In this document: positions 26,559 through 41,940 of the stretch, one piece after another
How the letters are laid out: the number at the start of each line of letters is the position of its first letter
How positions within the stretch are numbered: the stretch's first letter is position 1
DNA from: an uncultured Verrucomicrobia subdivision 3 bacterium
GTDB lineage: Bacteria > Verrucomicrobiota > Verrucomicrobiia > Limisphaerales > UBA11358
Direction of reading: 5' to 3'
NCBI GenBank assembly: GCA_903858275.1
Contig: CAIOIC010000100.1
Coordinates: 1-64,000 of the forward strand
DNA: 64,000 nucleotides
Program-made: the position numbers and the translations under genes
The notes under the pieces: generated by a model
What the model saw: the letters and a program-made list of their open reading frames with translations, nothing else
The model's database searches: none
What the model was told of the DNA's origin: nothing

Positions 26559-27923
26559 TCAAAGAGTTTCAAATCCCTGCTGCCGGAGCCGCTGAAGTTT
26601 GTAAAGCAAGGCGCGCCGGCTGATGCCCAAAGCCTTGGCCGTCTCGGTCCGGTTGAAATTCTGCTGGCGGAGGGTGAGCAAAATCGCGTTCCGCTCAATC
26701 TCATCCAACGGCGCAGGGGCCGCCGCCGCCAACGGCGCCTGTCTGGCCACCTCCCGGAGTTTCGCCGGCAGATGCTCGGGCAAAATCAATTCACTTTGCG
26801 AAAGCAGGGCGGCGCGCTCCATGGCGTTGCGCAACTCCCGCACGTTGCCCGGCCAGGCATAATTTTCCAGACAGTCCGTGGTCGCCGCCGCCAGCCGGGC
26901 GCGGTTGCGGGCGAATTCGGCGACGAACAGATTGGCCAGCGGCGAAATATCTTCCCGCCGCTCGCGCAACGGCGGCAAAGGCAGCTCCACCACGTTCAAC
27001 CGGTAAAACAAGTCCTCGCGGAACCGCCCCGTCTTCACCTCGTCTTCGAGATTGCGATTGCTCGCCGCGAGAATCCGCGCGTTCGTGTGAATCTCGCGGT
27101 TCGAGCCGATGCGCTGGAATTTTCCATCCTGCATCACGCGCAGCAATTTCGCCTGCAACGGCGGGGTCATCTCCGCAATCTCATCCAGAAAAATCGTCCC
27201 GCCATCCGCCTCCTCAAACCGGCCGATCCGCTGGGCCGTTGCGCCGGTGAACGCCCCGCGCTCGTGCCCGAACAGCTCGCTCTCCAGCAAGGTCTCGGGA
27301 ATGGCCGCGCAATTCACCTTCACCAGCGGGCCGCCGACGCGCGGACTCCAGCCGTGAATCACATCCGCCACCACTTCCTTGCCCGTGCCGCTTTCGCCGG
27401 TGATGAGCACGCGCGCTTCCGACGGCGCGATGAGCGCGACCTGCTGAAACAGCGCCGCCATCAGCGGACTTTGCGCCACGATATTCGCCGGCAGCGGTTT
27501 GGCCGCGCCCAGCTTCACCGCCACAGTCGGCTCCATGCCCGTGGCCTGCCGCACCGTGGCGAGCAGCTCGTCGAGATCAATCGGCTTGGCGAGATAGTTC
27601 AGCGCCCCGTCGCGCATCGCCACCACCGCTTCGCGAATGTCGGCGTAGGCGGTGACGAGCAATACCGGCAGCGTGGGAAATTTCTGACGCACCAGCCGCA
27701 GCGTGTCGAGGCCGGACAAACCCGGCATCCGCACGTCGGAAATCATCATGGAAAAACTTTCGGCGGCGAGAACGGTAAGGGCGCGGTCGCCGGAATCGGC
27801 CAGCACGGTTTCAAAATTCTGGGTGCGCAAAAACGAGTCCAGCAGACTGCGCTGCCCCGGATCGTCATCCACGATCAGGATGCGCGGCGGCAGCGGGGTT
27901 GGTTTGCGCGGTTCAGTGGCCAC
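26559..27923 (-). CDS. NtrC-family sigma-54-dependent response regulator
   Basis: A protein of about 454 residues with three domains. The receiver has phospho-acceptor Asp in SDVRMPGLSG. The AAA+ domain has Walker A GESGTGKE, the sigma-54 contact loop GAFTGA and Walker B GGTIFLDEI. A Fis-type helix-turn-helix lies at the end (NRTETAKALGISRRALLYKLQ). It activates sigma-54 promoters when phosphorylated. The start is uncertain: GTG 27923 is given, and TTG 27956 would add 11 residues. It is the last gene of the T2SS operon, 42 bp after the kinase stop with the chosen start. Confidence 0.92.
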   Translation of the reverse strand: MATEPRKPTPLPPRILIVDDDPGQRSLLDSFLRTQNFETVLADSGDRALTVLAAESFSMMISDVRMPGLSGLDTLRLVRQKFPTLPVLLVTAYADIREAVVAMRDGALNYLAKPIDLDELLATVRQATGMEPTVAVKLGAAKPLPANIVAQSPLMAALFQQVALIAPSEARVLITGESGTGKEVVADVIHGWSPRVGGPLVKVNCAAIPETLLESELFGHERGAFTGATAQRIGRFEEADGGTIFLDEIAEMTPPLQAKLLRVMQDGKFQRIGSNREIHTNARILAASNRNLEDEVKTGRFREDLFYRLNVVELPLPPLRERREDISPLANLFVAEFARNRARLAAATTDCLENYAWPGNVRELRNAMERAALLSQSELILPEHLPAKLREVARQAPLAAAAPAPLDEIERNAILLTLRQQNFNRTETAKALGISRRALLYKLQRLRQQGFETL

Positions 27924-27965
27924 GGCAGGGAAACTAGTCCAAAACCCCGGTGGCAAAAAGCAATT

Positions 27966-29480
27966 TCACGCCGCCAGTTTCAAATGCGAGATGCGGAAGA
28001 CGGCGCCGTGCGGCTCATTGGCGAGGCATTGGATTTCCCAGCCGTGCGCGGAAACGATCTGCTGCACCACGGCCAGGCCGAGGCCGGTGCCTTTTTGGTG
28101 CGTGGTGAAGTAGGGCTTGAAAATCTCCCGGCGCTTTTCCGGCGGCACGCCGGGGCCGTCGTCGCGAACTTCTAAAACCGCTTCCTGATTTTCCATCCGC
28201 CGGATGCCGATTTGAATCGCGCCGCTTTGCCCCACGGCCTGCATCGCGTTGATGAGCAAATTAAAGAGCACCTGCCGCAGCAGTTGTTCATCCGCCTCGA
28301 TGGCCAGCGGTTCGCCGGTGACTTCCACGCGCAATTGTTTTTCCGCGATGTCGTGGCCGAGGGTGCGGAGAATCTCATTGGCGGCGGCCGTCAAAACGAG
28401 GTTCGTCCGCCGCACTTCGCGGGGTTTCGAATAGTTGATGAACTCGGTGAGCTGCGCGGTCACTTTGTCGGTCTCATCCACGATGGTCTTGGTTTTGTCG
28501 CGCACTTCGGGCGAGGCGTCCGGCAGCCGCGAAACGATCTGCGCGAGACCGCGAATGATGTTGAGCGGATTGCGCGTCTCGTGGGCGAGCCCGGCGGCCG
28601 CGAGGTTCAATTCCTTGAGGTGCGAGTTTTGTTCGCTGGCGCGGACGAGGCGGATTTGCAAGTCGGCGGTTCTCGACATGTTGCGCCAGGCCAGGCCGAT
28701 GCCGAGCGCGGAAATGCCGGCAAAAAAGCTGACAACGCCGCGCAGCCACCAGTCATCCGCGCGGACAGCGCGCAGGTTTTCCGTGGACATCGCCAGCACC
28801 AGCGCATGCAACTCGCGCTTGGCGGTGAGCGCCTTGAACTCGGCCTCCTTCATGCCATGGAGCCACGGTGGACGCCGGCCGCCGCCGCTCGCCCGCGCTT
28901 GCCCGGCGTCATTCGTGGCTGGCGGCAGCGATGATCCGGCGAGGGCGTTGGTCTCGTTTGGATTCCGTTCGGGTCGGGAAAAATCCCGGTCGCGGGAGGT
29001 CGCGTTGGTCATCTCGCGGAACGGCGGCAGAACAACGGTGGAATTGGTGGCGCCTTCCGGCCGGACGCTGGCGCCGGCCATCGGCATCACAAAGGTGACA
29101 AAACTATCCGACCAGTGTTCGCCTTCGGTGGAGAGTTCGCGCGAAAGCAGATTGGTGTCGCCGGCGGTGACCACGGGATTACCTTCGGTGTTGAGCAAGC
29201 CGACCGCCACCAGTCCGCTGGAACTGACGATGGCATTGGTGCGGCTGTTGACCAGCTCATTGAGCACCGGTTCCAGCCGCTCCTGAAAAATCGCGCCGCG
29301 AAAACGCAGGGCGCGGGTGACGGCGCCCAGGGTGCTGGCGATTTCACGGGAGCGATTGCGGAGGTCCGACTTGGCGACCTCGACCACCCGGAAATGTTCC
29401 TGGCATTGCCAGCCCGCCACAACCAGCCACATGCCGGCGAGCAGGCCGTAGACCAGTTTGCTTTGCCGTTTGAGTTCCAT
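27966..29480 (-). CDS. Membrane sensor histidine kinase
   Basis: A 504-residue kinase, presumably the partner of the NtrC-type regulator. The N-terminal span is LVYGLLAGMWLVVAGW; a periplasmic sensor region of ~220 residues is rich in Asn, Thr and Gly; a second span is near residue 250 (GVVSFFAGISALGIGLAW). The H-box is AAAGLAHETRNPLNIIRG, and the ATPase domain shows the N-box LFNLLINAMQAVG and G-boxes VRDDGPGVPP and TGLGLAVVQQI. No HAMP domain is obvious. It starts 42 bp downstream of the secretin-domain gene and so appears to be in the same operon. Confidence 0.93.
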   Translation of the reverse strand: MELKRQSKLVYGLLAGMWLVVAGWQCQEHFRVVEVAKSDLRNRSREIASTLGAVTRALRFRGAIFQERLEPVLNELVNSRTNAIVSSSGLVAVGLLNTEGNPVVTAGDTNLLSRELSTEGEHWSDSFVTFVMPMAGASVRPEGATNSTVVLPPFREMTNATSRDRDFSRPERNPNETNALAGSSLPPATNDAGQARASGGGRRPPWLHGMKEAEFKALTAKRELHALVLAMSTENLRAVRADDWWLRGVVSFFAGISALGIGLAWRNMSRTADLQIRLVRASEQNSHLKELNLAAAGLAHETRNPLNIIRGLAQIVSRLPDASPEVRDKTKTIVDETDKVTAQLTEFINYSKPREVRRTNLVLTAAANEILRTLGHDIAEKQLRVEVTGEPLAIEADEQLLRQVLFNLLINAMQAVGQSGAIQIGIRRMENQEAVLEVRDDGPGVPPEKRREIFKPYFTTHQKGTGLGLAVVQQIVSAHGWEIQCLANEPHGAVFRISHLKLAA

Positions 29481-29522: not shown

Positions 29523-30758
29523 CTAATTTCTCTTCACCGGCACGCGTTCGAGGAAACGATTCAGTTCCAGCTCGCTGACGGAATTGGTGATGGCGGAGGC
29601 CTGGCCGGTTTCGTTCACCGCCATGGCCGCCAGCATCGTCGGCGATTTGACGATGTGCGGCGTCAGAAACATCAGCAGCTCCGTCTTCGTGTCGCTCTTG
29701 GCGCTGGACTTGAACAGCATTCCCAGCAGGGGGATATCGCCCAGCAGCGGCACCTTGCTGTCGGAGGAGGATTTGGTGTTGGAAATCAAGCCGCCAATGA
29801 CCACGGTCTGCGCGTCCGGCGTCACCACCACCGTGTCCGCGGAACGGACATTGAGCGTCGGGGCATAAACCGCGCTGCCGCCGAGGATTCCGCCGCCGCT
29901 GGCAATCTGTTGACCGGGCGTGGAGGTGTCCACCACGGAGGTTTGCGGCTGGAGAATCATTTCCACGAGGTTGTTTTGCCCGATGAACGGCGTAACGTTC
30001 AGGATGATGCCGACCGAGGTGTAGGTGCCGTTGATGATGGGTGTGGTATTGTTGCCCACTGAGTTGTAAGAAACACCGCTCGGCATGTAAATGGACTGGC
30101 CGACCACGATTTTGGCGAGCTGTCCGTCCCGCGCCAGAATGGACGGACGCGAAAGCACCTGCGCCTTGCCCGCCTGGGCAATGGCCTTCAGGGTTGCCTG
30201 AAAATCCTTGCCCATGATTTGGTAAAACCCGTTCGGCCCGCCCGATCCCGGGGACAACGCCGCCAAACCAGATGAACCCATCCCGTTAAAATTCGTCACG
30301 ACCGTATTGGCACCCGCCAAGCCAAACACGTTTGCCGCACTGGCCCCAATGCCGCTGCCGAGGTTGTTTTTGACATAAGCGCCTTCGATACCGATGTCCA
30401 AGTCGTCATTGCGCTGCACCTCCATGAACACCACCTTGATCAGCACCTGCGGTTTGGGCGCGTCGAGGCTGGCGAGGATGTTGCTGATTTGCTGGCTCGT
30501 TTCCTCGTCCGCGATGACCACGATGTTATGCGTCTCCGGGTCCACGGTGATGACCGCGCTGCCGATGGAGCCGTTATTATTGTATTGGCCCGCCATTGTG
30601 GATTGGCTACCGCCGGCACGATTGGCAGTGCCCGCGCCGGCGCCCAAGCCGCCAAAGCCACCGAAGCCGCCGCGCTGCTGGGCATAAAGTTCAACAGCGG
30701 GGCAAAGGAGCAAAGCCAGCGTTACCGCGGAAACTGTTGTAAAAGTGTTGGTCTTCAT
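29523..30758 (-). CDS. T2SS secretin barrel protein (C-terminal half of a split GspD)
   Basis: A 411-residue outer-membrane protein with its own signal peptide (TVSAVTLALLLCPAVELYA). A Gly/Asn-rich linker follows, then one N3-like ring domain (AVITVDPETHNIVVIADEE ... ASLDAPKPQVLIKVVFMEV). The full secretin domain starts near residue 180, with VLSRPSILARDGQLAKIVVG and the conserved ending VPLLGDIPLLGMLFKS plus LLMFLTPHIV. It lacks the N0-N2 domains of a normal ~650-residue GspD; those are in the gene immediately upstream. The 21-bp gap and separate signal peptides rule out a simple frameshift. Confidence 0.88.
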   Translation of the reverse strand: MKTNTFTTVSAVTLALLLCPAVELYAQQRGGFGGFGGLGAGAGTANRAGGSQSTMAGQYNNNGSIGSAVITVDPETHNIVVIADEETSQQISNILASLDAPKPQVLIKVVFMEVQRNDDLDIGIEGAYVKNNLGSGIGASAANVFGLAGANTVVTNFNGMGSSGLAALSPGSGGPNGFYQIMGKDFQATLKAIAQAGKAQVLSRPSILARDGQLAKIVVGQSIYMPSGVSYNSVGNNTTPIINGTYTSVGIILNVTPFIGQNNLVEMILQPQTSVVDTSTPGQQIASGGGILGGSAVYAPTLNVRSADTVVVTPDAQTVVIGGLISNTKSSSDSKVPLLGDIPLLGMLFKSSAKSDTKTELLMFLTPHIVKSPTMLAAMAVNETGQASAITNSVSELELNRFLERVPVKRN

Positions 30759-30779
30759 AGTTATTGTTGCTTTTAAATT

Positions 30780-32219
30780 TTAGAACTGCAATCCGCCCGC
30801 GCCACTGGTGCGCCCGCGGCTGGTGGTGCCGGAACTGGATGAGCTGCCCGAGGAGGTGGCGTTGTTTTGCGCCCGCTGCATCAACGCGCTGCTCTGCGAC
30901 GAACCGCTACCGGTGCGCGTCGAGCCGCTCGATTGGAACATGCTTTGCAGCACCTGCGCCGCCTGCTGCGGATCGCCGTTCTTCATCTGGAACACAAAGA
31001 CTTTCTGGTCGCGCGTTGAAGGCACATCCAAATCGGTCATCATGTCGGCGATTTGATCCATCAAATCCTTCGGCGCGGTCACGATGACCGCCTGAATGCG
31101 AGCGTCAGGCACCACATTGACCTGCATCGCTTTTTTGACGCGGTCGTTTGCACCGCCACCGGCAGTGGCCGCGCTGGCCGCGCTCGCCATCCGTTGGAAA
31201 AAACTCGCGCCGCCGCCGCCGCCGCCGCGCCCGGAAAAACGAGTCGGGGACTGGGCGGCAGAGCCGGAAGTGCTGCTTGGGAAAATGCTCGCGAGTTCCG
31301 ACGCCACGTCGATCGGGCTGGCGTGTTTCAGACGGAACACGCGAATCTCCGTTTCCGACTGCGCGCTGCTGTCAATCGCCTTGATGATTTCCGTCAGGTG
31401 CCGGATGTTTTGCTGGGTATCGGTGATGACAATGGAATTGCCGGCTTCGTTGGCCACCACCGTTGCCTGCGGCGAAACAAACGACGTCAAATCCGAAACC
31501 AATTGCCGCGCTTCGACGAAACGGATCGGAATGATTTGCGTCACAATCTCGGCGTTCTTCGGGATTTCCTCCGGATTGTTGCCGGTCTTCACGGGAATAT
31601 CGCGCGTCTTCGCGTCGTTTTTGTCCACGATGTTCAGGGTGCGTCCGTTCCGTATGGCGGCATAGTTGTTTTTGTTCAGCACGGAATTCAGCAAGTCCAC
31701 CGCCTCATCCCGGGTCAAATGGCTGCCTTTGACCGTCACGTTGCCGCTCACGCGCGTGTCGAGCACGATGATGAGCCCCGCCGCGTCGCTCAAATAATTC
31801 AGCACCATCTCCAGCGGCGCGTTGCGGAAATTCAACTGGATGTCGTTCGGGTTGTTCGTGCCGCTGGGCTGCGCCGGCGGAATGAAACTCGTTTGAGCAA
31901 TCTCACTCGCCACCGCTTTAGATTGTCCGGGCAGGATGATCGGCGGTTCGGAAACCGCTTTCTTTCCGGGGTCATTGGTGTTGGCGGCGGCAGTGGCCTG
32001 GGCCTGAATGACTTCATTCGTCAGGGCCGCGGCGATGGCCGCGATTATTTCCGGCGATGGCTGGGGCGGCACGCTTCCCGCCTCCGGGCCACCCGGCATG
32101 TTGTCTCCGGCGATATTGGGCGGTGGTGGCGGCGGATTGTTATTGCCCGGCGGGTCTTGCGCGATTATCGGCAGTCCGGCCACGCCCAGCGTCAGTAAGG
32201 TTAAGATAATTTTTTTCAT
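30780..32219 (-). CDS. Periplasmic N-domain protein (N-terminal half of a split GspD)
   Basis: A 479-residue exported protein (signal peptide MKKIILTLLTLGVAGLPIIAQ). After a Pro/Ala linker it carries GspD N-domains. N0 is IQLNFRNAPLEMVLNYLSDAAGL; the following ring domains have TQIIPIRFVEARQLVSDL, IVITDTQQNIRHLTEIIKAID, and FRLKHASPIDVASELASIF with a Gly/Ser-rich loop, then VVPDARIQAVIVTAPKDLMDQI. It ends in a Ser/Gly-rich tail (from about residue 425) with no secretin barrel. The barrel is the next gene. It overlaps the GspC-like gene by 4 bp. Confidence 0.85.
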   Translation of the reverse strand: MKKIILTLLTLGVAGLPIIAQDPPGNNNPPPPPPNIAGDNMPGGPEAGSVPPQPSPEIIAAIAAALTNEVIQAQATAAANTNDPGKKAVSEPPIILPGQSKAVASEIAQTSFIPPAQPSGTNNPNDIQLNFRNAPLEMVLNYLSDAAGLIIVLDTRVSGNVTVKGSHLTRDEAVDLLNSVLNKNNYAAIRNGRTLNIVDKNDAKTRDIPVKTGNNPEEIPKNAEIVTQIIPIRFVEARQLVSDLTSFVSPQATVVANEAGNSIVITDTQQNIRHLTEIIKAIDSSAQSETEIRVFRLKHASPIDVASELASIFPSSTSGSAAQSPTRFSGRGGGGGGASFFQRMASAASAATAGGGANDRVKKAMQVNVVPDARIQAVIVTAPKDLMDQIADMMTDLDVPSTRDQKVFVFQMKNGDPQQAAQVLQSMFQSSGSTRTGSGSSQSSALMQRAQNNATSSGSSSSSGTTSRGRTSGAGGLQF

Positions 32220-32833
32220 TGGTTCTCCTTGGCTCTTTTTTCCATCAGTCGTTTCAAGATTTCACTTTGCGCCCCCCCGGCAACCGGCACGCTGGGCGTG
32301 CTGCTGGCGCTCGAATTCCCGGCCGTGCCCGCCGCCGCGCCCGTTTCACTTGAGGGCGCGCCGGGGGGGATTTCCGCCGAACCGGAAAACTGCCAGCCGC
32401 CGGCTTCCTGGTGCATCCCGTCGCCGACTTTAAGCTCCAGCTTTTGCTTGCCGTCGGCCGATTCAATCCGCGCGCGGCCCGCCGCAATTTCCGTCACCGT
32501 ATAGTCCGCGATTTTTTCCGACACGATCAGGACTTTTTTCAAATCCGTGTCATTGCCGCTGAAAAAGGCAAAAAATCCCTTTTCGTAAGCCATCGTGCCA
32601 ACCAGCGTGAATGCCGGCGTCGAGGCCGAGCGGGTCCGTGGCCGGGTCGCCGGCGTCCGGGTCGAGGGGTAATGCGGCTGGCGGTTCGGATCGAAAATGT
32701 TCCGGTCCGTGACGAACCGGCTGAACGCCGTGTAATCCGTCGGGCCGGGGACGTTCCGATTGGCCTGCCCAAACACATCACCCGCCAGCACGACCGCCAG
32801 CGCAAAAACAAATTGGGTTTGCATGGTTTTCAT
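32216..32833 (-). CDS. GspC/PilP-like exported protein of the T2SS operon
   Basis: A 205-residue protein with an N-terminal signal sequence (TQFVFALAVVLAGDVFG). The core (~residues 35-135) has RNIFDPNRQP followed by FTLVGTMAYEKGFFAFF and KVGDGMHQ. That pattern, a short NIF/DP motif and a small beta domain, resembles the HR domain of GspC and PilP, which contact the secretin N0 domain. The C-terminus is disordered. It overlaps both neighbours by 4 bp. Homology is weak, so the name is tentative. Confidence 0.6.
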   Translation of the reverse strand: MKTMQTQFVFALAVVLAGDVFGQANRNVPGPTDYTAFSRFVTDRNIFDPNRQPHYPSTRTPATRPRTRSASTPAFTLVGTMAYEKGFFAFFSGNDTDLKKVLIVSEKIADYTVTEIAAGRARIESADGKQKLELKVGDGMHQEAGGWQFSGSAEIPPGAPSSETGAAAGTAGNSSASSTPSVPVAGGAQSEILKRLMEKRAKENQ

Positions 32834-33366
32834 TTTTTGTCGCGGGCAACCAAAGCCAGTCCGTTGATTTCCAGACTAAGCGTCATCTGCTGGCCGATGG
32901 TGTCGCGCGAAGTCAGTTCCACCGAGTCCACCTTGAGCGCCATCGGCCCTTTTTCCAGCGCATAGAGAAACTTGCTCAACGTCGCCAGGTCGCCCGCCGA
33001 TTCCACACGGCAGGCCAGCGTCAGATAATTCGTCGAATCGCTTTTCCACTGCGGCATGATGCTCGTCAGCTCCGCGCCCGCCTCGCGCGACCAGCCGTCC
33101 AGCGCCTTCAAAAACCGCTGTTCCGCCTGCGACGGGTTGGCGGGGAGTGCGTTGGCCTGCATCCAGTTCCAGCGGCTGCGGATGCCGGTCTCGCGCTTGA
33201 TCAGCTGCTGACCTTCGCCGACCTGCTTCTGCAACGACTTGATCTGCGCCTGCCGCGACGACCACCAGCCGCCGAGCGGTTCCAGAATGAAATTCACCCC
33301 GACCAGCAGCGCGAACGCCGCGATGGTCAGCACCACGAGAAATTGCTGGCGGTTCTCTATTTTCAT
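32830..33366 (-). CDS. GspM/PilO-like inner-membrane protein
   Basis: A 178-residue protein with one N-terminal span (QFLVVLTIAAFALLVGVNFIL), a coiled-coil region (SRQAQIKSLQKQVGEGQQLI) and a small periplasmic ferredoxin-like domain (YLTLACRVESAGDLATLSKFLYALE). This is the layout of GspM/PilO. ATG 33366 follows the upstream stop by 2 bp; the longer ORF to 33531 is an out-of-frame read through the GspL gene. Confidence 0.75.
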   Translation of the reverse strand: MKIENRQQFLVVLTIAAFALLVGVNFILEPLGGWWSSRQAQIKSLQKQVGEGQQLIKRETGIRSRWNWMQANALPANPSQAEQRFLKALDGWSREAGAELTSIMPQWKSDSTNYLTLACRVESAGDLATLSKFLYALEKGPMALKVDSVELTSRDTIGQQMTLSLEINGLALVARDKK

Positions 33367-33368
33367 TT

Positions 33369-34820
33369 TCACTCCGCGCCTCCGTTGTTGAGTTTGAAGC
33401 TGAACACAAACTGGATCGGCGGCTTGTTGCCGCGGCTCTGCTCGCGATGCACGGCGGTCACGCCCGGCAGCGCGCTCAATCTCGCCTCCACCGCCAGCAG
33501 CGACGCATTGTCCCTCGCCGAACCGGCGCAAGTCACCGTGCGGCCGTTGCGGATGGTGATGTTCTTCGCCGTCACTGCGCCGTCTTCGGGAAACGCCAGC
33601 GACAACTGCCGCAACACCGCCAGATTGTTGTAGGTGCCGCTATACCATGGCCGGAATTGATGGATCTGGCTTTGAATAGTTTCGAGTCCGGCGACTTTCG
33701 TCTGCATCTTCGACCATTGCGAACGCAGGCTCCACAACTGGTATTGCTGGAACAGGAAAACTCCCGCGACCAGCGCCGCGATTCCCGCCGCCACCGCGCC
33801 GGACTTGCGCAGCCGGCCGGAAGAATATTTCGTCACGAACTGCTCGAAGATATTCGGCTTCGGCGGCAGAAATTCGAACACCGGCTTTTCGCCCGCCAGC
33901 AGCCGCGCCGCAAGGCTGAACGCGGCGGAAACCGATGCCCCCACCGGCAGCGTCATGCCAAATTCATCCGGCGCATAAGCGGAAACCACTTCCACTTTCA
34001 GATCCAGCGCCTCCAGCTTCAGCTCCAATTCATCCGCCAGCAATTGCGCCAGTTCGCGCGGGCCGTAAATACGGATGCGTTTCACCGCCGCGCGCAATTC
34101 CGCGGGCAGTTGCCCCAGCGTCACGCGCGTTTCGCGCGCCACCAGATCCGGATGCAGCGTCAACCGGCCCGCCGTGTTTTCCACCGCGCCTTCCAGAGCG
34201 CGCAAGGCCACCACGCCGCCGTTGGTGATTTGCAAGCCGACATTGGTTTCGCCGATCACCAGCGCCAGCACGCCGTTGGAGCTCTTGCTCGACGCGGGTT
34301 GCAGCGCCGTCGCGCCCAGCACCAGGCTGGCCGGTTTCAATTTGGCCGCCGCCAAAACCTTTTCCAGCGCGGTGAGCTGGGTGATGGGAATGCCGGCGAG
34401 CAGAACATATTTTTTTTCGTCCGCCAGCGGGGTGCGGGAATTCGCGATTTGCAGCGTCGCCACGTCCGCATGGAATCCTTTTTCCGCCTCGAGCTGCAAC
34501 AGGCTCGTCGCGTCCGCCTCCGGCAGCGGCGGCAGTTCCGTTTGCGCCGTCAAAACCAGTTTCAACGGCACGCCGAGCACGCAGTCGCGTTCGCGGATGC
34601 CGACGGCATCCAGGTGGTTGCGGATTTCGCGTCCGACCAGTTCCGGCGCGGCGGTCAGCGGGTCCAGCGTGAGCGCGGCGGAAAAAGTCTGGAGCGGTTG
34701 CAGTGAACCATTCGTGCGTTTCAGCACCACGCCGTCGAGCCGGCTGCCGTCGAGCGTCAGGCCGACCACCGTGGTCAGCGTTTTGCCCCGGCCGAATTTG
34801 AATTTAAAATCAGGTTTCAT
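33369..34820 (-). CDS. GspL-like (PilM-PilN fused) T2SS assembly protein
   Basis: A 483-residue protein. The N-terminal ~330 residues resemble the actin-like cytoplasmic domain of GspL/PilM (TVVGLTLDGSRLDGVVLKR; VLALVIGETNVGLQI). One membrane span follows near residue 338 (GAVAAGIAALVAGVFLF), then a coiled coil and a PilN/GspL-type periplasmic domain ending KPPIQFVFSFKLNN. It would link the GspE ATPase to the periplasmic GspM. It overlaps gspK by 4 bp. Confidence 0.8.
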   Translation of the reverse strand: MKPDFKFKFGRGKTLTTVVGLTLDGSRLDGVVLKRTNGSLQPLQTFSAALTLDPLTAAPELVGREIRNHLDAVGIRERDCVLGVPLKLVLTAQTELPPLPEADATSLLQLEAEKGFHADVATLQIANSRTPLADEKKYVLLAGIPITQLTALEKVLAAAKLKPASLVLGATALQPASSKSSNGVLALVIGETNVGLQITNGGVVALRALEGAVENTAGRLTLHPDLVARETRVTLGQLPAELRAAVKRIRIYGPRELAQLLADELELKLEALDLKVEVVSAYAPDEFGMTLPVGASVSAAFSLAARLLAGEKPVFEFLPPKPNIFEQFVTKYSSGRLRKSGAVAAGIAALVAGVFLFQQYQLWSLRSQWSKMQTKVAGLETIQSQIHQFRPWYSGTYNNLAVLRQLSLAFPEDGAVTAKNITIRNGRTVTCAGSARDNASLLAVEARLSALPGVTAVHREQSRGNKPPIQFVFSFKLNNGGAE

Positions 34821-36241
34821 TCCGTGTTCTCCGCGACCAAATTTTCCCGCACTGTTTCACCAAGCGCCCAGCCCAGCCGGCTCAAATCCTGCCGATACAA
34901 AATGATGGGCGAACCGTTGCTCACATCGAAAATGAATTTCACGCGGCGATAGCCGCGGCCGTACGGCCCGACCGCGGCGATATCCGCCGCGAACTGATAG
35001 CTGCGCGTGGTAACGTAATCGCCGCGCGCCAGCGCCGTGATCACCGGACTGGTGTTGCCCAGCGCGTCGATAATCCACGCAATGGAGCCGAGATTGCCGG
35101 GATTCTGCTGGCGATAAGTGACAAGCGTCTGCGCCGCGTTTATCGCTGTTGACTCATCCTGATTCAAGCCCATGAACAAAGCCGTCAGCACTTCAGCGTT
35201 GGCGGTATTGACGTTCACGCGGCCCCGGAAATAGGTGTTGGTGCTCGTCGTCACCTCGCTGGCGATTCTGGCAAAATCGTCCGAGCTCATGCCGATGTTT
35301 TTACAACGCAGGGCCAGTCCCAAAATTCCACGGTAGGGACGCGCGGTCGCGTTGGTCGCAATCAGTTGCGGGACATAGGAAGTGCTGATGCTGGCATTTT
35401 GCAGGAGTGAACGGACCTGGGCGCTCGTCGCCGTGTTCATGTTGGTCAGCGCCGTACTGTCGGAATGAAAATTCGGCTCGCGCGTATAAACCGTGGTGTG
35501 TTCCAGCAGGCCGGAATCCAGTTCGCCATTGCTGTTCAAGTCTTTTTCGTTTTTGTCAGCGACGCCGTTGCGGTTCAAGTCCTCGCCCGCGAGCATTTCC
35601 GCCGAGGCGCCATAAACGAGGCGCAGCTCATCCACCGTCTCGAACGGGGCATATTTCGGCGCGTAACCCAGCGACGTGTAATCGAAAGCGACCAGGCCGT
35701 TCGTGCCGCGCCAGTCCATGATCGCGTCGGCAAAATCGGAATAGATGTTCGGCAGATATTGAAAGATATTGGTGCTGACATTGTTCAAGTTGAGTTTACC
35801 GCCCTCGTCCACCAGGCTGAAATACGGATCGGTGGCATTGCCGCCCGCCGGGTCGCGGCCGATCAGCCAGAACTTCGCGTCCCCGACCGGCACGGCCTCG
35901 CAGCGGAACTGCGTGTTGTCCGGCATCGCACCGTTCGTCGCAAAATTCAGCAATGCGAGACTGACGTAACGCGCCGCGCCTTCGATGGCTTGATCTGCCA
36001 TGAGACCGCTCACGCGATTATCCGAAGCGCGCAGTTCATAAGTCATCTGGTTGGCAAAATACAGCGCGATGCTCACGAGGCCGATGCTCACCCAAAGCAC
36101 GATGATCAGCACAGAACCGGATTGCGATTTACGGCAACGCCTAATCTTCAACCTTGAACCTTCAACATACAATGAAGCACCGCACCGAACGCCGTTGGGC
36201 GTTGGGCGTTGGGCGTTGAATGTTGAATGTTGAATGTTCAT
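34817..36241 (-). CDS. gspK: General secretion pathway protein K (minor pseudopilin)
   Basis: A 474-residue minor pseudopilin. The hydrophobic pilin-like helix is GSVLIIVLWVSIGLVSIALYF. It is followed by a large periplasmic domain with LVDEGGKLNLNNVSTN, DAIMDWRGTNG and YAPFETVDELRLVYG, which are GspK hallmarks, plus a Ca-type loop DLNRNGVADKNEKDLNSNG. GspK caps the pseudopilus tip with GspI and GspJ. ATG 36241 has a GGAGG site 5 bp upstream. The first ~40 residues before the helix, much longer than a normal leader, are partly translated from heptamer repeats. Confidence 0.88.
   Translation of the reverse strand: MNIQHSTFNAQRPTPNGVRCGASLYVEGSRLKIRRCRKSQSGSVLIIVLWVSIGLVSIALYFANQMTYELRASDNRVSGLMADQAIEGAARYVSLALLNFATNGAMPDNTQFRCEAVPVGDAKFWLIGRDPAGGNATDPYFSLVDEGGKLNLNNVSTNIFQYLPNIYSDFADAIMDWRGTNGLVAFDYTSLGYAPKYAPFETVDELRLVYGASAEMLAGEDLNRNGVADKNEKDLNSNGELDSGLLEHTTVYTREPNFHSDSTALTNMNTATSAQVRSLLQNASISTSYVPQLIATNATARPYRGILGLALRCKNIGMSSDDFARIASEVTTSTNTYFRGRVNVNTANAEVLTALFMGLNQDESTAINAAQTLVTYRQQNPGNLGSIAWIIDALGNTSPVITALARGDYVTTRSYQFAADIAAVGPYGRGYRRVKFIFDVSNGSPIILYRQDLSRLGWALGETVRENLVAENTE
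36194..36235. repeat. Tandem heptamers (3 x gttgggc + 3 x gttgaat) in the gspK leader
   Basis: Six contiguous 7-bp units of two types inside the first codons of gspK. A further pair of ttcaacc/ttgaacc-type units lies nearby at about 36149-36168. Confidence 0.9.
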
Positions 36242-36243
36242 TT

Positions 36244-36942
36244 TCAGCCTCCCGTCGCGCTGGTCAAAACCATGTTCGTTCGCGCTACGCAATCAATCGG
36301 CACGACCATCTGAATCGGCTCTCTGGCGTTGCCGCCGGCCATCTGGATTTCCACGCGCACGGCGAGCGGCAGATTGGTATAAAGTGAGGTCGCATCGCTG
36401 GTATCCCAGGTTTCCTGCCAGCGCGAGCCGTCAAAGCAGGTAAATTTTACGCTCTCGACGCTGCCCAGCATCAGTTGATCCTCCACCTCGGGGGTGCCGC
36501 TGAGGGAAAGCAGATTTCGCGTCACGCTGCGAAATAAATCGCGCCGTCCGGCAACCTCCGTGGAATTCTTTAATTCGTAAGTCACCCGCTGAATGTCCGC
36601 CCACGGCGAATTGACGCTCAAGGCCCCCGTTGCAGTGAACATCTCCACCGCCACCGGTTCGCTCGCGCCCAGGCTGGTGATCGTGCCCGCCCTGAAGCTG
36701 CCGGACAAAAATTTACTGGTGCCATTGGTGGGCGGGACGACACATTGCAAATCGCGGCGCAGGAACGTCACCGCCTGATCCAGCGGCGTGGCGGCATCCA
36801 CCGCTTCGGTCGTCACCCGGCGCAAATGCAGCGCCGTGAACAGCACGGCGTTCACCGCCGCGAGCACGATGGCGGCCACGCCGATGGCGAGAATCATCTC
36901 GACCAGCGTGAACGCGCTTTGCCTGTTCGTTGCAATTTTCAC
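36244..36942 (-). CDS. gspJ: General secretion pathway protein J (minor pseudopilin)
   Basis: A 232-residue pseudopilin. The prepilin-type motif is SAFTLVEMILAIGVAAIVLAA with cleavage before F. The periplasmic part has LDQAVTFLRRDLQCVVPPTNG and VESVKFTCFDGSRW, typical of GspJ. The start is GTG 36942, overlapping the gspI stop by 4 bp; the much longer ORF to 37146 is spurious. Confidence 0.85.
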   Translation of the reverse strand: MKIATNRQSAFTLVEMILAIGVAAIVLAAVNAVLFTALHLRRVTTEAVDAATPLDQAVTFLRRDLQCVVPPTNGTSKFLSGSFRAGTITSLGASEPVAVEMFTATGALSVNSPWADIQRVTYELKNSTEVAGRRDLFRSVTRNLLSLSGTPEVEDQLMLGSVESVKFTCFDGSRWQETWDTSDATSLYTNLPLAVRVEIQMAGGNAREPIQMVVPIDCVARTNMVLTSATGG

Positions 36943-37370
36943 TTCGTCAAATTCATCGTGGTCACCCCTGCCTGGGTGGCCAGCGTTTCCAGTTTCACCG
37001 AATAATCTTTGCCTTGCGCGGTGAACTTCACTTCCGCGGTCACCATCTGCAGGGCCGAATCCTCCGCCCAGGCCTGGCTGGACAGCGTCCAGTTGAATTC
37101 CCGGCCGCCTTCCGTCACCGTGCCGCTTTGCCTGCCGGTGTTCCAATTTGTCGTCACCAGACTTTCATTCAAAACCCGGTCCGCGATGCGCGCCGCCGAG
37201 CCTTTTCGCGCGCCGACTTCGCCCGCCAGGCTCGCGATGTGCATCGCCTCGATCGCCGCCGGAATCACGATGGCGAGAAACAGCATGGCCGCCAGCACCT
37301 CGGCCAGCGTGAAGGCCCGGCAGCGGCGCGGCGCGGCGCGGCGCTTATTTCTCGGTATCGCGAATTTCAT
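36939..37370 (-). CDS. gspI: General secretion pathway protein I (minor pseudopilin)
   Basis: A 143-residue pseudopilin. The leader is basic (KRRAAPRRCR), followed by AFTLAEVLAAMLFLAIVIPAA as the processed N-terminal helix. The C-terminal domain is short, as expected for GspI. It overlaps gspH by 26 bp and gspJ by 4 bp. Confidence 0.82.
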   Translation of the reverse strand: MKFAIPRNKRRAAPRRCRAFTLAEVLAAMLFLAIVIPAAIEAMHIASLAGEVGARKGSAARIADRVLNESLVTTNWNTGRQSGTVTEGGREFNWTLSSQAWAEDSALQMVTAEVKFTAQGKDYSVKLETLATQAGVTTMNLTK

Positions 37371-37863
37371 ATCCCAACCGCGTTTTGCCGAGCACCAGCC
37401 AGCGCGAAAACCCGGCGCTATCCGTCAATTTCAAAGTCTGCGGACTGTTTTCGTCCACCGTGCCATCCGCCGTAAATTTTACCGCCGGCAAATTCTGAAA
37501 CGTCGGCGGCGTTTCCGCGCTGCCGCTCACCACGGCGATTTGCAGCGTGGAATCCAGATTCAGATTCTCCGCCTTCGCATCCCCGTCCGGCCCGCTCGTT
37601 TCGGCTTGCAGGCCGTAAGCGCCCTGTTTCTCGTCCACCCATAGCACCATCGTCGCGCCTTCCGAAACCGCGCGGCTCTGGCCCGCGTGCATCAGCGCCG
37701 CCAGCCGCCGCGCCTCAGAATCCAACGCCCGCCCGCGCACAAAATTCGACAGCGCCGGCGCCGCGAGCGACGTGACAATCACCAGCAACGCCAGCACGAG
37801 AATCAATTCGACCAGCGTGAAGGCGCGCCGGCGAAAATTATTTTGTCCAGTTGCCAACATCAT
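37345..37863 (-). CDS. gspH: General secretion pathway protein H (minor pseudopilin)
   Basis: A 172-residue pseudopilin with RAFTLVELILVLALLVIVTSL as the prepilin segment and a GspH-like globular domain (DSEARRLAALMHAGQSRAVSEG, VKFTADGTVDEN). ATG 37863 (or 37860) is preferred; it overlaps the gspG end by 26 bp. Confidence 0.82.
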   Translation of the reverse strand: MMLATGQNNFRRRAFTLVELILVLALLVIVTSLAAPALSNFVRGRALDSEARRLAALMHAGQSRAVSEGATMVLWVDEKQGAYGLQAETSGPDGDAKAENLNLDSTLQIAVVSGSAETPPTFQNLPAVKFTADGTVDENSPQTLKLTDSAGFSRWLVLGKTRLGYEIRDTEK

Positions 37864-38269
37864 CTTCCGTGCCTTCTTTGGCATCCTGGCCGATCGACAG
37901 CAAGTCAAAGGAGCTCGGGTTGTGTTTGCCGGGAAAATAATAAACGTAATTGTTTCCCCACGGATCCTGCGGAACTTTTTCCAGATACGGCCCGTGCCAG
38001 TTCTTGGCGTTGCTCGGCGCGGTCACCAGATCCTGGATACTCTTCGGGTAAAAGCCGTTGTCCACTTCGAACGCATCGAGCGCGGTCTTGATGGAGGAGA
38101 TGTCGGCGTGCGCGGCCGTGGCGCGGGCTTGTTCGCTGCGGCCGACAATTTTCGGGATCACCAGCGCCGCGAGAATGCCGATGATGGTGACGACCAGCAG
38201 CATTTCGACCAGCGTGAAGGCGCGGCGCAGTTTCGTTGTCTGGATGAGGGGTTTGATTTGGAGGTTCAT
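37838..38269 (-). CDS. gspG: General secretion pathway protein G (major pseudopilin)
   Basis: A 143-residue major pseudopilin. The prepilin motif is RAFTLVEMLLVVTIIGILAAL with Glu at +5. The GspG core follows: ISSIKTALDAFEVDNGFYP, WHGPYLEKVPQDPWGNNYVY and FDLLSIGQDAKEGTEDD (the Ca-binding end). It polymerises into the periplasmic pseudopilus. The prepilin peptidase gene is not in the window. Confidence 0.95.
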   Translation of the reverse strand: MNLQIKPLIQTTKLRRAFTLVEMLLVVTIIGILAALVIPKIVGRSEQARATAAHADISSIKTALDAFEVDNGFYPKSIQDLVTAPSNAKNWHGPYLEKVPQDPWGNNYVYYFPGKHNPSSFDLLSIGQDAKEGTEDDVGNWTK

Positions 38270-38281
38270 AAAGGTTCCGGG

Positions 38282-39535
38282 TTATTTGATGTAATCCTGC
38301 AATGAAAATACGGGCAACAGCATCGAGATGAAAATGACGCCGATGAATCCGGCGATGAGAAACAGCATCAGCGGTTCCGCAAAGGCGACGGCGGTCTTCA
38401 AATTGCGGTCCAGATCCACTTCCGTGACGCTGGCCACGCGGATCAATTCCACATCCAGTTTGCCGCTCTCTTCCGCGACGGAAATCATTTCCAGGACCGC
38501 GCCCGAAAAAAGCGCCTTGCAGTCGCCCAGACTCTGGCCGAGCCGGCCGCCCTGCTGCACGCGTTCGATGGACTGGCCGACGGCATCCACCAGAATCTGA
38601 TTGCCGATGGACCGGCGCGAGACATTCAAGCCCTGCACCAGCGGCACGCCGGCGCTGAGCAGCGTGCCCAGCATCCGGCAGAAACGGGCCATCGCGAATT
38701 GCGCGATGAGCGGGCCGACGAGCGGCGATTTCAAAACGATGCCTTCCCACGAGCGCTTGCCCTTTTCGGAGACAAACCACGCCCGCACGAGAAAAGCAAC
38801 CGCCCCAATCCCCAGGGCGACCAACACCCCATACGACCGCACGAGGTGGCTCAAGCCGATGACCAGTTGGGTGATCAGCGGCAACGAACCATGGACGCTG
38901 GCAAAAACCTTTTGAAATTTCGGGATGAAGAAAACCAGGAGCACCGTCAGCACCACCAGCGCGAGAAACAACAGGATGCACGGATAAATCATCGCCGTAA
39001 GCACCTTGGATTTAAGCTCTTTTTCCCGCGTCTGAAAATCGGCGATCTGCGCCAGCACCACGTCGAGGAAGCCGCCCGCCTCGCCCGCCTCCACCATCGC
39101 TACATAGACGCGCGGAAACGTATCCGGCGATTGCGCCATCGCGTTCGCCAGCGACATGCCGTCCACCACGAGGTCGTGGACCTGCTTCCACTTTGCCTGC
39201 GCCGCCGGCGACGAGGATTCCTTGTAAAGAATGACCAGGGCGCGGCTCAGGGGCACGCCGGCTGCGAGCAAGCTGGAAAGCAGGCGGGTGAAATTTTCCA
39301 GCTCCTTCGCCGAAACTTTTTTGGATTCAAACTTGAAAGAAACATTGCCGAGATTGCCGGGCGCGCCCGCCGAAGCGGAACCGGTTTTTCCCGCCGCCGG
39401 TTTTTCCGCAAGGTTCACCGGACGCAAACCGAGCGTTTCCATCTGCCGCATGGCGTCCGGACGACTTCCCGCCTCGAGCACGCCTTCGGCCATTTTGCCG
39501 TTGGCTTGCAATGCTTTGTAGGAAAACGTCGGCAT
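38282..39535 (-). CDS. gspF: General secretion pathway protein F (inner-membrane platform)
   Basis: A 417-residue platform protein with two GspF domains. Three membrane segments are visible: ILLFLALVVLTVLLVFFI (~residue 190), SYGVLVALGIGAVAFLVRAW (~240) and the C-terminal LMLFLIAGFIGVIFISMLLPVF. MVEAGEAGGFLDVVLAQIADF and ISVAEESGKLDVELIRVA are the paired repeats of the family. It starts 10 bp after gspE. Confidence 0.95.
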   Translation of the reverse strand: MPTFSYKALQANGKMAEGVLEAGSRPDAMRQMETLGLRPVNLAEKPAAGKTGSASAGAPGNLGNVSFKFESKKVSAKELENFTRLLSSLLAAGVPLSRALVILYKESSSPAAQAKWKQVHDLVVDGMSLANAMAQSPDTFPRVYVAMVEAGEAGGFLDVVLAQIADFQTREKELKSKVLTAMIYPCILLFLALVVLTVLLVFFIPKFQKVFASVHGSLPLITQLVIGLSHLVRSYGVLVALGIGAVAFLVRAWFVSEKGKRSWEGIVLKSPLVGPLIAQFAMARFCRMLGTLLSAGVPLVQGLNVSRRSIGNQILVDAVGQSIERVQQGGRLGQSLGDCKALFSGAVLEMISVAEESGKLDVELIRVASVTEVDLDRNLKTAVAFAEPLMLFLIAGFIGVIFISMLLPVFSLQDYIK

Positions 39536-39545
39536 GACAAATTGT

Positions 39546-41267
39546 TCAGCGCGCCACCGCGAGGCTTGCGGCGGATTCCCCGGATTCGACTTTTTGCGAG
39601 CGCTCGACTTCCTTCGCCGTCGTGACGCTCAACACTTCCTCAACCGTCGTCACCCCGGCCGCGACGAGCCGCCAGCCGTCCTCCGCGAGCGTCGTCATGC
39701 CGGCGCGGCGCGCGGCGTTCCGGATTTGGTCCGTGGAAGCGGATTTTAAAATCAACTGGCGGATTTCCTCGTCCGTGTCCATCCACTCAAAAATCGCGTG
39801 CCGGCCGAAGAATCCGGTGTTGCGGCATTCGCGACAACCCACGGATTTATAAATGACTTTGTCCACCGCGATGCCGAGCTTGGCCTTCAACGTCTGCGCT
39901 GTCGCGGAATCGTCTGCTTTTTTGCAGTGCGGGCAGAGCACGCGGACGAGGCGTTGGGCGAGCACCGCTTCGAGCGACGAAGCGACGAGATACGGTTCCA
40001 CCCCCATGTCCACCAGGCGCGTGAGCGCGCCGGGCGCGTCGTTGGTGTGCAGCGTGGAAAACACCAAATGGCCGGTGAGCGACGCCTGCACGGCAATCTG
40101 CGCGGTTTCCGCATCGCGAATTTCGCCGATGAGAATCACGTCCGGGTCGTGGCGAAGAATCGAGCGCAGTCCGCGGGCAAAAGTGAGTCCGGATTTTTCG
40201 TTGACCTGGATTTGATTGACGCCTTTGAGCTGGTATTCCACCGGGTCTTCCACGGTGATGATTTTGCGGACGGCATCGTTGATTTCGTTCAGCGCCGTGT
40301 AGAGCGTGGAAGTTTTGCCGGAGCCGGTCGGGCCGGTGACCAGAATGATTCCGTGCGGCATGCCGAGAACGTGTTGAAAATGCTCCAGCTCGCGCTGGTT
40401 CATCCCGATTTCACCTAGTCCGCGCAGGGTGGAATTCTGCCGCAGCAAACGCATCACCACGGCTTCGCCGTGCAGCATCGGAATCACGGAAACCCGGATG
40501 TCCACCTCGGCCTGCTCGATGCGCACCTTGATGCGGCCGTCTTGCGGCAGGCGTTTTTCCGCGATGTTGAGATGGCTCAGGATTTTCACGCGCGAAACAA
40601 TGGCCGGCTGAAAACGCTTGAGCTGGGCCGGCACGGGAACTTCCTGCAATTCGCCGTCAATGCGGTAGCGGATGCGGAATTCATCCTCAAACGGCTCGAG
40701 GTGGACGTCCGATGCGCGCAGCTCAATCGCGTCTTTCAAGACCTGGTTGACGAACCGGATGATGGAGGCCTCGTCCTCTTCGCCGCTGTCGAGATCGTTG
40801 CCCTCGGCATTTTCGTCCAGAACTTGCAGGCCTTTTTCCTCGTCGAGGGTGCCGATGGTGTCCGCGCCGACGCCGAGGCGCTTCTTGATTTCGCGCTGGA
40901 TGGCTTCGCTCGCGGCCAGCACCGGCCTGAGGTTCAAGCCGGTCAGGGTTTTAAGCGCATCAAATCCCTGCGTGGCAAAAAGCCGGCTGGTGGCAACCTC
41001 CACCATGCCGTTCACCCGCTGCAGCGGAAGCAATTCCTCCTTCAGCAAAATGCGCGCGGGAAAGAGCGAGAGGATCTGACGATCCGGCTCCACGTCTTCG
41101 AGCGTCGTGAAGCTGAGTCCGTATTCCTTCGCGAGCCAGCGGAGAATTTCTTCTTCGCTGCGCAGCGGCAGCTTGGCGAGCGTGTCGGCATCGAGCGACG
41201 ACAGTTGCCGGGACGCCACCATGCGTTCCAGCAACTGCCGGGAATCCTGAGCCGGTGTGGTCGCCAT
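39546..41267 (-). CDS. gspE: General secretion pathway ATPase GspE
   Basis: A 573-residue secretion ATPase. N-terminal N1E-like domains come first, then the ATPase core with Walker A GPTGSGKTSTLYTALNEI near residue 312, an Asp box ITVEDPVEYQLKGVNQIQVN, Walker B DPDVILIGEIRDAET, and the His box FSTLHTNDAPGALTRLVDMG. The zinc-binding tetracysteine CPHCKK ... GCRECRNTGF is intact. It powers pseudopilus assembly on the cytoplasmic face. 26 bp after the upstream exported protein gene. Confidence 0.96.
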   Translation of the reverse strand: MATTPAQDSRQLLERMVASRQLSSLDADTLAKLPLRSEEEILRWLAKEYGLSFTTLEDVEPDRQILSLFPARILLKEELLPLQRVNGMVEVATSRLFATQGFDALKTLTGLNLRPVLAASEAIQREIKKRLGVGADTIGTLDEEKGLQVLDENAEGNDLDSGEEDEASIIRFVNQVLKDAIELRASDVHLEPFEDEFRIRYRIDGELQEVPVPAQLKRFQPAIVSRVKILSHLNIAEKRLPQDGRIKVRIEQAEVDIRVSVIPMLHGEAVVMRLLRQNSTLRGLGEIGMNQRELEHFQHVLGMPHGIILVTGPTGSGKTSTLYTALNEINDAVRKIITVEDPVEYQLKGVNQIQVNEKSGLTFARGLRSILRHDPDVILIGEIRDAETAQIAVQASLTGHLVFSTLHTNDAPGALTRLVDMGVEPYLVASSLEAVLAQRLVRVLCPHCKKADDSATAQTLKAKLGIAVDKVIYKSVGCRECRNTGFFGRHAIFEWMDTDEEIRQLILKSASTDQIRNAARRAGMTTLAEDGWRLVAAGVTTVEEVLSVTTAKEVERSQKVESGESAASLAVAR

Positions 41268-41293: not shown

Positions 41294-41860
41294 TTAGTTC
41301 ACCAGGCCGACCAGGACGGCTTGCGCCTCCTGTTTGGTGGTGAGCACCGTTTTTAGTTCAGCCTGCGCCGCTTCCAGCTTGTCTTGTTTGATCTTCTGCG
41401 CGGCTTTGTATTTGGCGAGCAAATCCTTTACCTGTCCGGCCGGCGCATTGTCATCCAGTGCTTTTTGCAGCGCTTCCGCCTCGGGGCTGGGCTGGCCGAA
41501 CCCGGTGCGGGAACGGGTGCTGGCTTGATCGCCATTGTTACCGCCCCGACTGCGTCCACCCATGAGGCCGCGCAACTGGCCGCTGCGCGCCGCGATCTGG
41601 GCTTCCATGACTTTCTGCACGATTGGTTTCACAGCTTCCCACTCCACGTCGTTCGTGAATCCAAGGCGGTCCCGCGTTCCCTCCAGCATGCGCTGTTGGA
41701 ACTGTGCCGGATCGAAATTGCCGCCCCCAGTGCGATTGCGCGGCTGGCCATCGGTGCCGGCGGGTTTGGGGGTGGCGGTGTCCTGTGCCAGCAGGCTGGT
41801 CGCGCTGATGGCCAGCGTGACTGCCATCGCGCACAAGGTAATAATGCGATTAAGTTTCAT
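41294..41860 (-). CDS. Exported Gly/Gln-rich protein heading the T2SS operon
   Basis: A 188-residue protein with a signal peptide (ITLCAMAVTLAISATSLLA). It has no recognised domain: a Gly/Arg/Asn-rich stretch (residues ~95-125) and a helical C-terminus (LLAKYKAAQKIKQDKLEAAQ). ATG 41860 was chosen. It lies directly behind a sigma-54-type promoter and 26 bp before gspE, so it could be a periplasmic accessory or a substrate; that is inference from position only. Confidence 0.75.
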   Translation of the reverse strand: MKLNRIITLCAMAVTLAISATSLLAQDTATPKPAGTDGQPRNRTGGGNFDPAQFQQRMLEGTRDRLGFTNDVEWEAVKPIVQKVMEAQIAARSGQLRGLMGGRSRGGNNGDQASTRSRTGFGQPSPEAEALQKALDDNAPAGQVKDLLAKYKAAQKIKQDKLEAAQAELKTVLTTKQEAQAVLVGLVN

Positions 41861-41940
41861 GGAATTATTTTTGGTTTGTGAATGTTGGTTGGTTTCAGTC
41901 CGCGCTGTCACTTTTGTGAAAGCTTGGTTTGGCACTCATA

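Follow-up and report, generated by a model that had tools for sequence, protein, structure and literature searches.

A type II secretion system secretin encoded by two adjacent genes and cut within its N3 ring domain

How does a secretin work when its periplasmic rings and its outer-membrane barrel are made as separate proteins? This question is raised by the type II secretion system (T2SS) locus of an uncultured Verrucomicrobia subdivision 3 bacterium, which we analyzed in a 64,000-nucleotide stretch of DNA (the window; positions 1 to 64,000 of contig CAIOIC010000100.1, assembly GCA_903858275.1). In this locus the secretin GspD is encoded as two adjacent genes, each bearing a signal peptide, within a conserved T2SS operon. 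An earlier sequence-only reading had proposed a secretin split over two exported proteins, and its coordinates, chain lengths, and spacing were borne out: two adjacent open reading frames (ORFs) occupy 29523-32219 on the minus strand, where the upstream gene gspD-N (30780-32219) encodes a 479-amino-acid (aa) N chain and the downstream gene gspD-C (29523-30758) a 411-aa C chain. The 21 nucleotides (nt) that separate them (30759-30779, minus strand) run from a TAA stop to the next ATG, and the two genes are in frame here, a relation not conserved among relatives. Signal-like starts were read in both sequences, MKKIILTLLTLGVAGLPIIA followed by Q in the N chain (32160-32219, minus strand) and MKTNTFTTVSAVTLALLLCPAVELYA followed by Q in the C chain (30681-30758, minus strand), in agreement with the proposal that each chain has its own signal peptide. 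No Shine-Dalgarno site for gspD-C is evident in the upstream region in the window, and its translation is possibly coupled to the upstream stop.

Both products are recognizable as two parts of one GspD, since together they tile the family model TIGR02517 (positions 1-296 in the N chain, 271-599 in the C chain). The N chain scores 186 bits and the C chain 234 bits, each alone below the family cutoff of 351; neither chain combines all domains with the score above 351 bits that defines a single-polypeptide GspD. Pfam finds the GspD N0 domain (PF21305, 1e-11) and three Secretin_N stretches in the N chain, and the Secretin domain (PF00263, 7.7e-45) in the C chain together with a Secretin_N match that is confined to profile positions 25-69 of 69. 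The full GspD domain set is thereby present, with N0, N1, and N2 in the N chain, the barrel in the C chain, and N3 divided between them. A better alignment of the N chain to some other family would have spoken against this assignment, and its best alignment is to GspD. On sequence grounds, the window secretin is a split GspD and not a member of the family in the single-chain sense.

The domain layout places the break within a folded domain. In order along the minus strand, the N chain carries N0 (residues 127-203; 31611-31841), which reaches AlphaFold2 (AF2) predicted local distance difference test (pLDDT) values of 85-90 and matches the N0 of 4jtm with a root-mean-square deviation (rmsd) of 2.3 over 79 residues. 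This is followed by the N1 ring domain (residues 224-286; 31362-31550) and the N2 ring domain with its Gly-rich loop (residues 289-398; 31026-31355), both supported by PF03958 and AF2. The chain closes with the first strand and helix of N3 (N3a, beta1-alpha1; residues 403-432; 30924-31013; KVFVFQMKNGDPQQAAQVLQSMF), modeled as a strand at 406-411 and a helix at 417-432, and with a Ser/Gly-rich C-terminal tail (30783-30923) in which an L..R motif is conserved among the Verrucomicrobiota members. The mature C chain begins with a Gly/Phe-rich head (30588-30680, minus strand), and its folded part opens with SAVITVDPETHNIVVIADEETSQQISNILASLD, the second half of N3 (N3b, beta2-beta3-alpha2; residues 67-101; 30456-30560, minus strand), identified by the partial PF03958 match and by AF2 (pLDDT 88-90). 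The secretin barrel domain (29646-30185, minus strand) follows and matches 5w68 with a Z-score of 14.8. Since the C chain holds just the latter half of a Secretin_N domain, the break is internal to N3, and N3 is therefore shared by both chains, as opposed to a set of rings joined to a complete N3-barrel protein. The domain division proposed earlier thus stands for N0-N2 in the N chain and the barrel in the C chain; N3, which had been thought duplicated or whole in one gene, is in fact halved. Homology of the C chain to solved GspD structures begins at residue 308 of the PulD chain and near residue 278 in E. coli K-12 GspD (5wq7), and the PulD cryo-EM structure lists loop 288-303 as unbuilt (PMC6882859). 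The break probably lies in this disordered Gly/Ser loop of N3 or near it, the numbering offsets between structures being only roughly matched. The number of ring domains is itself variable: members of the window's genus have one N domain fewer than those of sister families, and one locus (L252, 766 aa) has more.

A complete GspD elsewhere in the genome could have served this operon in place of the split pair. The genome of the window (3.66 Mb, 136 contigs, 94% complete) contains a single GspD-type N0 domain, that of gspD-N. Its other secretins are both single-chain and of other types, namely a 900-aa Amuc_1098-type type IV pilus secretin and a 607-aa protein that has a single Secretin_N domain but lacks N0, and this candidate was rejected; the second full GspD that the sequence-only reading had allowed for is not found in the window's own genome. 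Relatives carry additional N0-bearing secretins at other loci, for example one of 654 aa in G161.

The split extends far beyond this genome. Contigs of relatives, of the class, of the phylum, and of named genomes were searched, and the ORFs at the matches were then read. Two-gene GspD is present in 87 distinct loci, almost all from Verrucomicrobiota, so the survey of this phylum that had been suggested as a check returned the same split throughout. One of these loci (L164) belongs to G161, whose 4.2-Mb genome is a single contig and is given as 100% complete. The named examples comprise Verrucomicrobia, one of them a metagenome-assembled genome labelled Pedosphaera parvula, and one Candidatus Sumerlaeota. 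In Candidatus Sumerlaeota, where 15 of 40 genomes gave a strong match, about a dozen loci are split and one is fused (705 aa). Strong matches were found in 31 of 294 Planctomycetota genomes, and nearly all of the loci read are fused, with one (G889) split at the same place. GspD is fused in the more distant bacteria of the sample. Across the 87 loci, the C-chain start lies 4-102 nt past the N-chain stop, and a hydrophobic, signal-like stretch is present at this start in 85. The distribution indicates that the split is an old feature of the whole clade and not a peculiarity of the window genome. Planctomycetes and some members of the window's order also have very long fused secretins or open frames of about 1900-4800 codons (L069, L070, L100, L243, G041:C162, G196:C5, and G264:C185); the ones that were read contain many N-domain matches.

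Whether the orphan halves of N3 still meet was approached through conservation and structure prediction. N3a is conserved to the same degree as N2a, the corresponding half of the intact N2 (1.55 bits for each), and has no gaps; N3b, at 1.33 bits, is close to N2b at 1.20. The N-chain tail (1.94) and the C-chain signal peptide (2.37) drift. Conservation of the orphan halves alongside drift of the tail and signal peptide is expected if the halves still form a domain. For AF2, the window chains were joined by reading the TAA as Gln, and 64 aligned sequences were supplied, 18 of them likewise joined. Block means of pLDDT in this joined chain are 79-91 for N3a and 76-90 for N3b, with the roughly 120 residues between them mostly below 50. 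Taken together, N3a and N3b superpose on one N domain of HofQ (2y3m; model residues 403 to 587, 64 residues, rmsd 2.1, Z 7.8). The model also aligns with many secretin chains from its residue 405 onward. In the prediction, then, AF2 packs the N3 halves of the joined chain into a single domain.

We consider it likely, on the basis of sequence and modeling, that the product is a heteromeric secretin in which complementation of the two N3 half-domains fastens the periplasmic rings to the barrel. Each chain would be exported on its own through Sec, and beta1-alpha1, orphaned in the N chain, would then fold in the periplasm with beta2-beta3-alpha2 from the C chain into one N3 ring domain. The N0-N1-N2 rings would in this way be held on the barrel non-covalently, the new chain ends would sit at the place of the normally disordered Gly-rich N3 loop, and the N0 end would make the contact usual in a T2SS, here with the GspC-like protein. 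An isolated N0-N2 chain of XcpQ self-assembles into rings (PMC5646246), and the N module is treated as separable from the C module (N3 plus barrel), the 15:12 mismatch being unsolved (PMC10550240); these two observations make a two-chain mechanism plausible. Several points weigh against half-domain complementation. The use of a joined chain, with 18 of the 64 alignment rows joined as well, could favor pairing of the N3 halves in the prediction, and the Z-score of 7.8 for the N3 match is modest. Whole-model Foldseek TM-scores are low and the predicted TM-score (pTM) is 0.42, so that placement of the rings relative to the barrel is unreliable. The signal peptides were called by eye and with a crude hydrophobicity criterion, and we infer physical assembly of the chains from their anatomy, their conservation, and the joined-chain prediction.

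The stoichiometry of such an assembly would most likely be 1:1 (15:15), because every N3b requires an N3a. An alternative is that the copy numbers are uncoupled, with 15 C chains and fewer N chains (12, for example), which would resolve the 15:12 mismatch between secretin and inner-membrane platform. That the mismatch exists is clear and it is under debate, N modules in isolation assemble as dodecamers, and for XcpQ a C15:N12 model has been put forward (PMC10550240, PMC5646246); furthermore, differing numbers are possible only in a non-covalent design. Fifteen rebuilt N3 domains nonetheless require 15 copies of N3a, and the sequences hold no hint of unequal numbers, so we regard uncoupled numbers as unlikely. 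There is a similarly small chance that the split allows ring and barrel copy numbers to differ (12 or a variable number of N chains on 15 C chains) or the modules to be exchanged. If so, the symmetry mismatch would be resolved, rings could be added, removed, or swapped on a preassembled pore, and the free Ser/Gly tails and Gly/Phe-rich heads would line the lumen at the N3 constriction.

It is also conceivable that N3 is never rebuilt, with the C chain acting by itself as a short channel while the N chain builds a periplasmic ring or adaptor that does not continue the barrel. The XcpQ N0-N2 rings form without a C module (PMC5646246), and the mature ends of both chains here are long and flexible, both of which would suit such an arrangement. 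N3a would then have no partner, yet it is fully conserved, and the cut falls in the middle of N3 instead of at the N2/N3 boundary in both the main clade and the Planctomycetota case. With AF2 also rebuilding N3, albeit in the joined chain, we find separate rings and channels quite improbable. Read-through or frameshifting that also yields a normal fused GspD is suggested by the in-frame, 21-nt spacing of the window ORFs. The relative frames of the N and C genes are, however, uncorrelated across the 87 loci (28/27/32, like random), which argues against read-through; the N-gene stops vary (TAA, TGA, and TAG), and a fused product would carry a signal peptide mid-chain. This explanation was rejected on the random relative frame and has very little probability left. 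Finally, the fragmented assembly and the shared frame with a single intervening TAA might suggest one GspD broken by a frameshift or stop through sequencing error, misassembly, or pseudogene formation, a reading ruled out by the survey and next to impossible given the same arrangement at 87 distinct loci (single-contig G161 among them), the signal-peptide-like C-chain start in nearly all of these, and the conservation of both halves.

Trees bear on how often the split arose. Among 154 secretin domains in one tree, the 87 split rows all fall on one side of a branch (SH-like approximate likelihood-ratio test, 97). A denser tree (106 rows) unites 54 split rows in a single clade (100/100) and places the planctomycete G889 among fused proteins, a position that needs two changes in the best tree and across bootstraps. 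The C and N chains of G889 are 64% and 54% identical to the fused Sumerlaeota protein and at most 51% and 45% identical to the split proteins compared. A single origin of the primary split is not rejected in an approximately unbiased test (p 0.208). These comparisons suggest that the primary split probably arose twice at the same loop, independently in G889.

Some relatives have gone further and encode GspD in three parts. In a Verrucomicrobiota genome (G038) and its congener (G282), the N part is divided into two genes of 319 and 300 aa (318 and 309 aa in G282), with four-base gene overlaps and a signal peptide on each product. The extra cut falls after strand 1-helix 1 of a ring domain, the first N2. 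Sumerlaeota genome G570 has a comparable set of 375, 355, and 422 aa, and G571 is alike as far as its contig reaches. The tripartite loci are L199:13257-16440, L193:3625-6829, L251:5249-8795, and L250, where the first gene lies beyond the contig end; Pfam assigns N0 to the first product, N domains to the middle one, and the barrel to the third. Two-gene relatives separate the two tripartite lineages in the tree, so the second cut probably arose independently in each. In such relatives, the same half-domain device would be repeated in an N2 domain, and cuts at the same loop in two unrelated lineages support half-domain complementation.

The split genes end a complete T2SS operon, which reads from right to left in the window as gspE, F, G, H, I, J, K, L, M, C, D-N, and D-C, all on the minus strand. 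It comprises the ATPase gene gspE (39546-41267; PF00437 6.4e-138, TIGR02533 1.5e-181), gspF (38282-39535; PF00482 1.1e-56), the major pseudopilin gene gspG (37838-38269; PF08334 1.3e-31), gspH (37345-37851; PF12019 9.8e-7), gspI (36939-37370; PF02501 1.2e-5), gspJ (36244-36960; PF11612 1.2e-12), gspK (34817-36292, the ORF extent, the true start probably lying inside; PF03934 2.2e-4 and PF21687), gspL (33369-34820; assigned by position and conserved synteny only, with no Pfam match), and gspM (32830-33366; PF10741 8.9e-5). The order (EFG)HIJ(K)LM-C-DN-DC is kept in most relatives examined, including those with fused GspD. A small exported protein with no Pfam match is encoded upstream of gspE (41294-41935, minus strand) and has a homologue in the same place in L199 and L200. 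Downstream of gspD-C, genes for a histidine kinase and an NtrC-type sigma-54 activator (26559-29480, minus strand) follow in the window and in most relatives examined, which suggests either dedicated regulation or merely stable linkage.

Next to gspD-N, at 32216-32833 (minus strand), lies the GspC-like gene that the sequence-only reading had noted beside the split secretin. Its product, apparently exported, combines a PilP/GspC-HR-like domain with a conserved helix at the C-terminus. The match to NCBIfam GspC is weak (21.9 of 150 bits), and the protein contains a confident beta domain (pLDDT 96-98). In a single fold search PilP gives the only sensible matches and takes the top nine places, with weak E-values (best 0.0038) and a probability of 1.00 for the first seven; PilP shares the GspC HR fold. 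The N-terminus of the window protein, like that of several relatives, reads as a cleavable signal peptide and not as an anchor, so the GspC-like protein seems to be exported instead of anchored in the inner membrane. The C-terminal helix (E.LKRLMExR) is conserved across 22 relatives (alignment A4).

Compared with canonical GspD (PulD, XcpQ/XcpD, and EpsD; TIGR02517), the window system has the same N0-N1-N2-N3-secretin domain order, the same operon position after gspC, and homology to 5wq7, 5wln, 6hcg, and 6i1x over both of its parts. It differs in being made as two separately exported chains, cut inside N3, and in its ring count, sister families having additional N domains and the window's genus one fewer. 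A parallel in organization is the mitochondrial GspD of jakobids, heteroloboseans, and malawimonads, which is split, with half N domains in GspDN2 and GspDN3 and a GspD-GspDN1 interaction seen by two-hybrid (PMC8134430). As in the window, the secretin part and N domains of GspD/GspDN1-3 are on separate polypeptides and half-N-domain proteins occur. The mitochondrial system is eukaryotic, with nuclear genes, no N0 or GspC, and a partial barrel (PMC8134430), whereas the window system keeps a full N0-N3 and a GspC-like protein in one operon. By analogy, the window secretin would work like the mitochondrial split GspD without being a member of it, and the mitochondrial and bacterial splits are likely convergent. 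Gene fission also gave rise to the inner-membrane platform TadB/TadC (PMC6668835), like split GspD a component of the type IV filament superfamily turned into two genes; it concerns another component, the fission falls between whole domains, and a second signal peptide is unneeded. In the literature searched, with most subscription journals outside its scope, a bacterial GspD in two or three exported polypeptides cut within a ring domain is undescribed. The only described parallel there is the split mitochondrial GspD, and the parts themselves are ordinary GspD parts.

The covalent link between ring and barrel is thus severed across much of Verrucomicrobiota and Sumerlaeota, and probably again in a planctomycete, and in each of the two tripartite lineages a second ring domain is cut at the same loop. 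Annotation rules that demand a full-length GspD miss or mislabel such systems. Debate in the literature has centered on how a 15-fold barrel meets a 12-copy inner platform via the flexible N module of a one-chain GspD. Two- and three-part secretins make ring assembly, ring-barrel docking, and stoichiometry testable by mixing purified chains, and they are a bacterial counterpart of the mitochondrial GspD split, which is itself unexplained.
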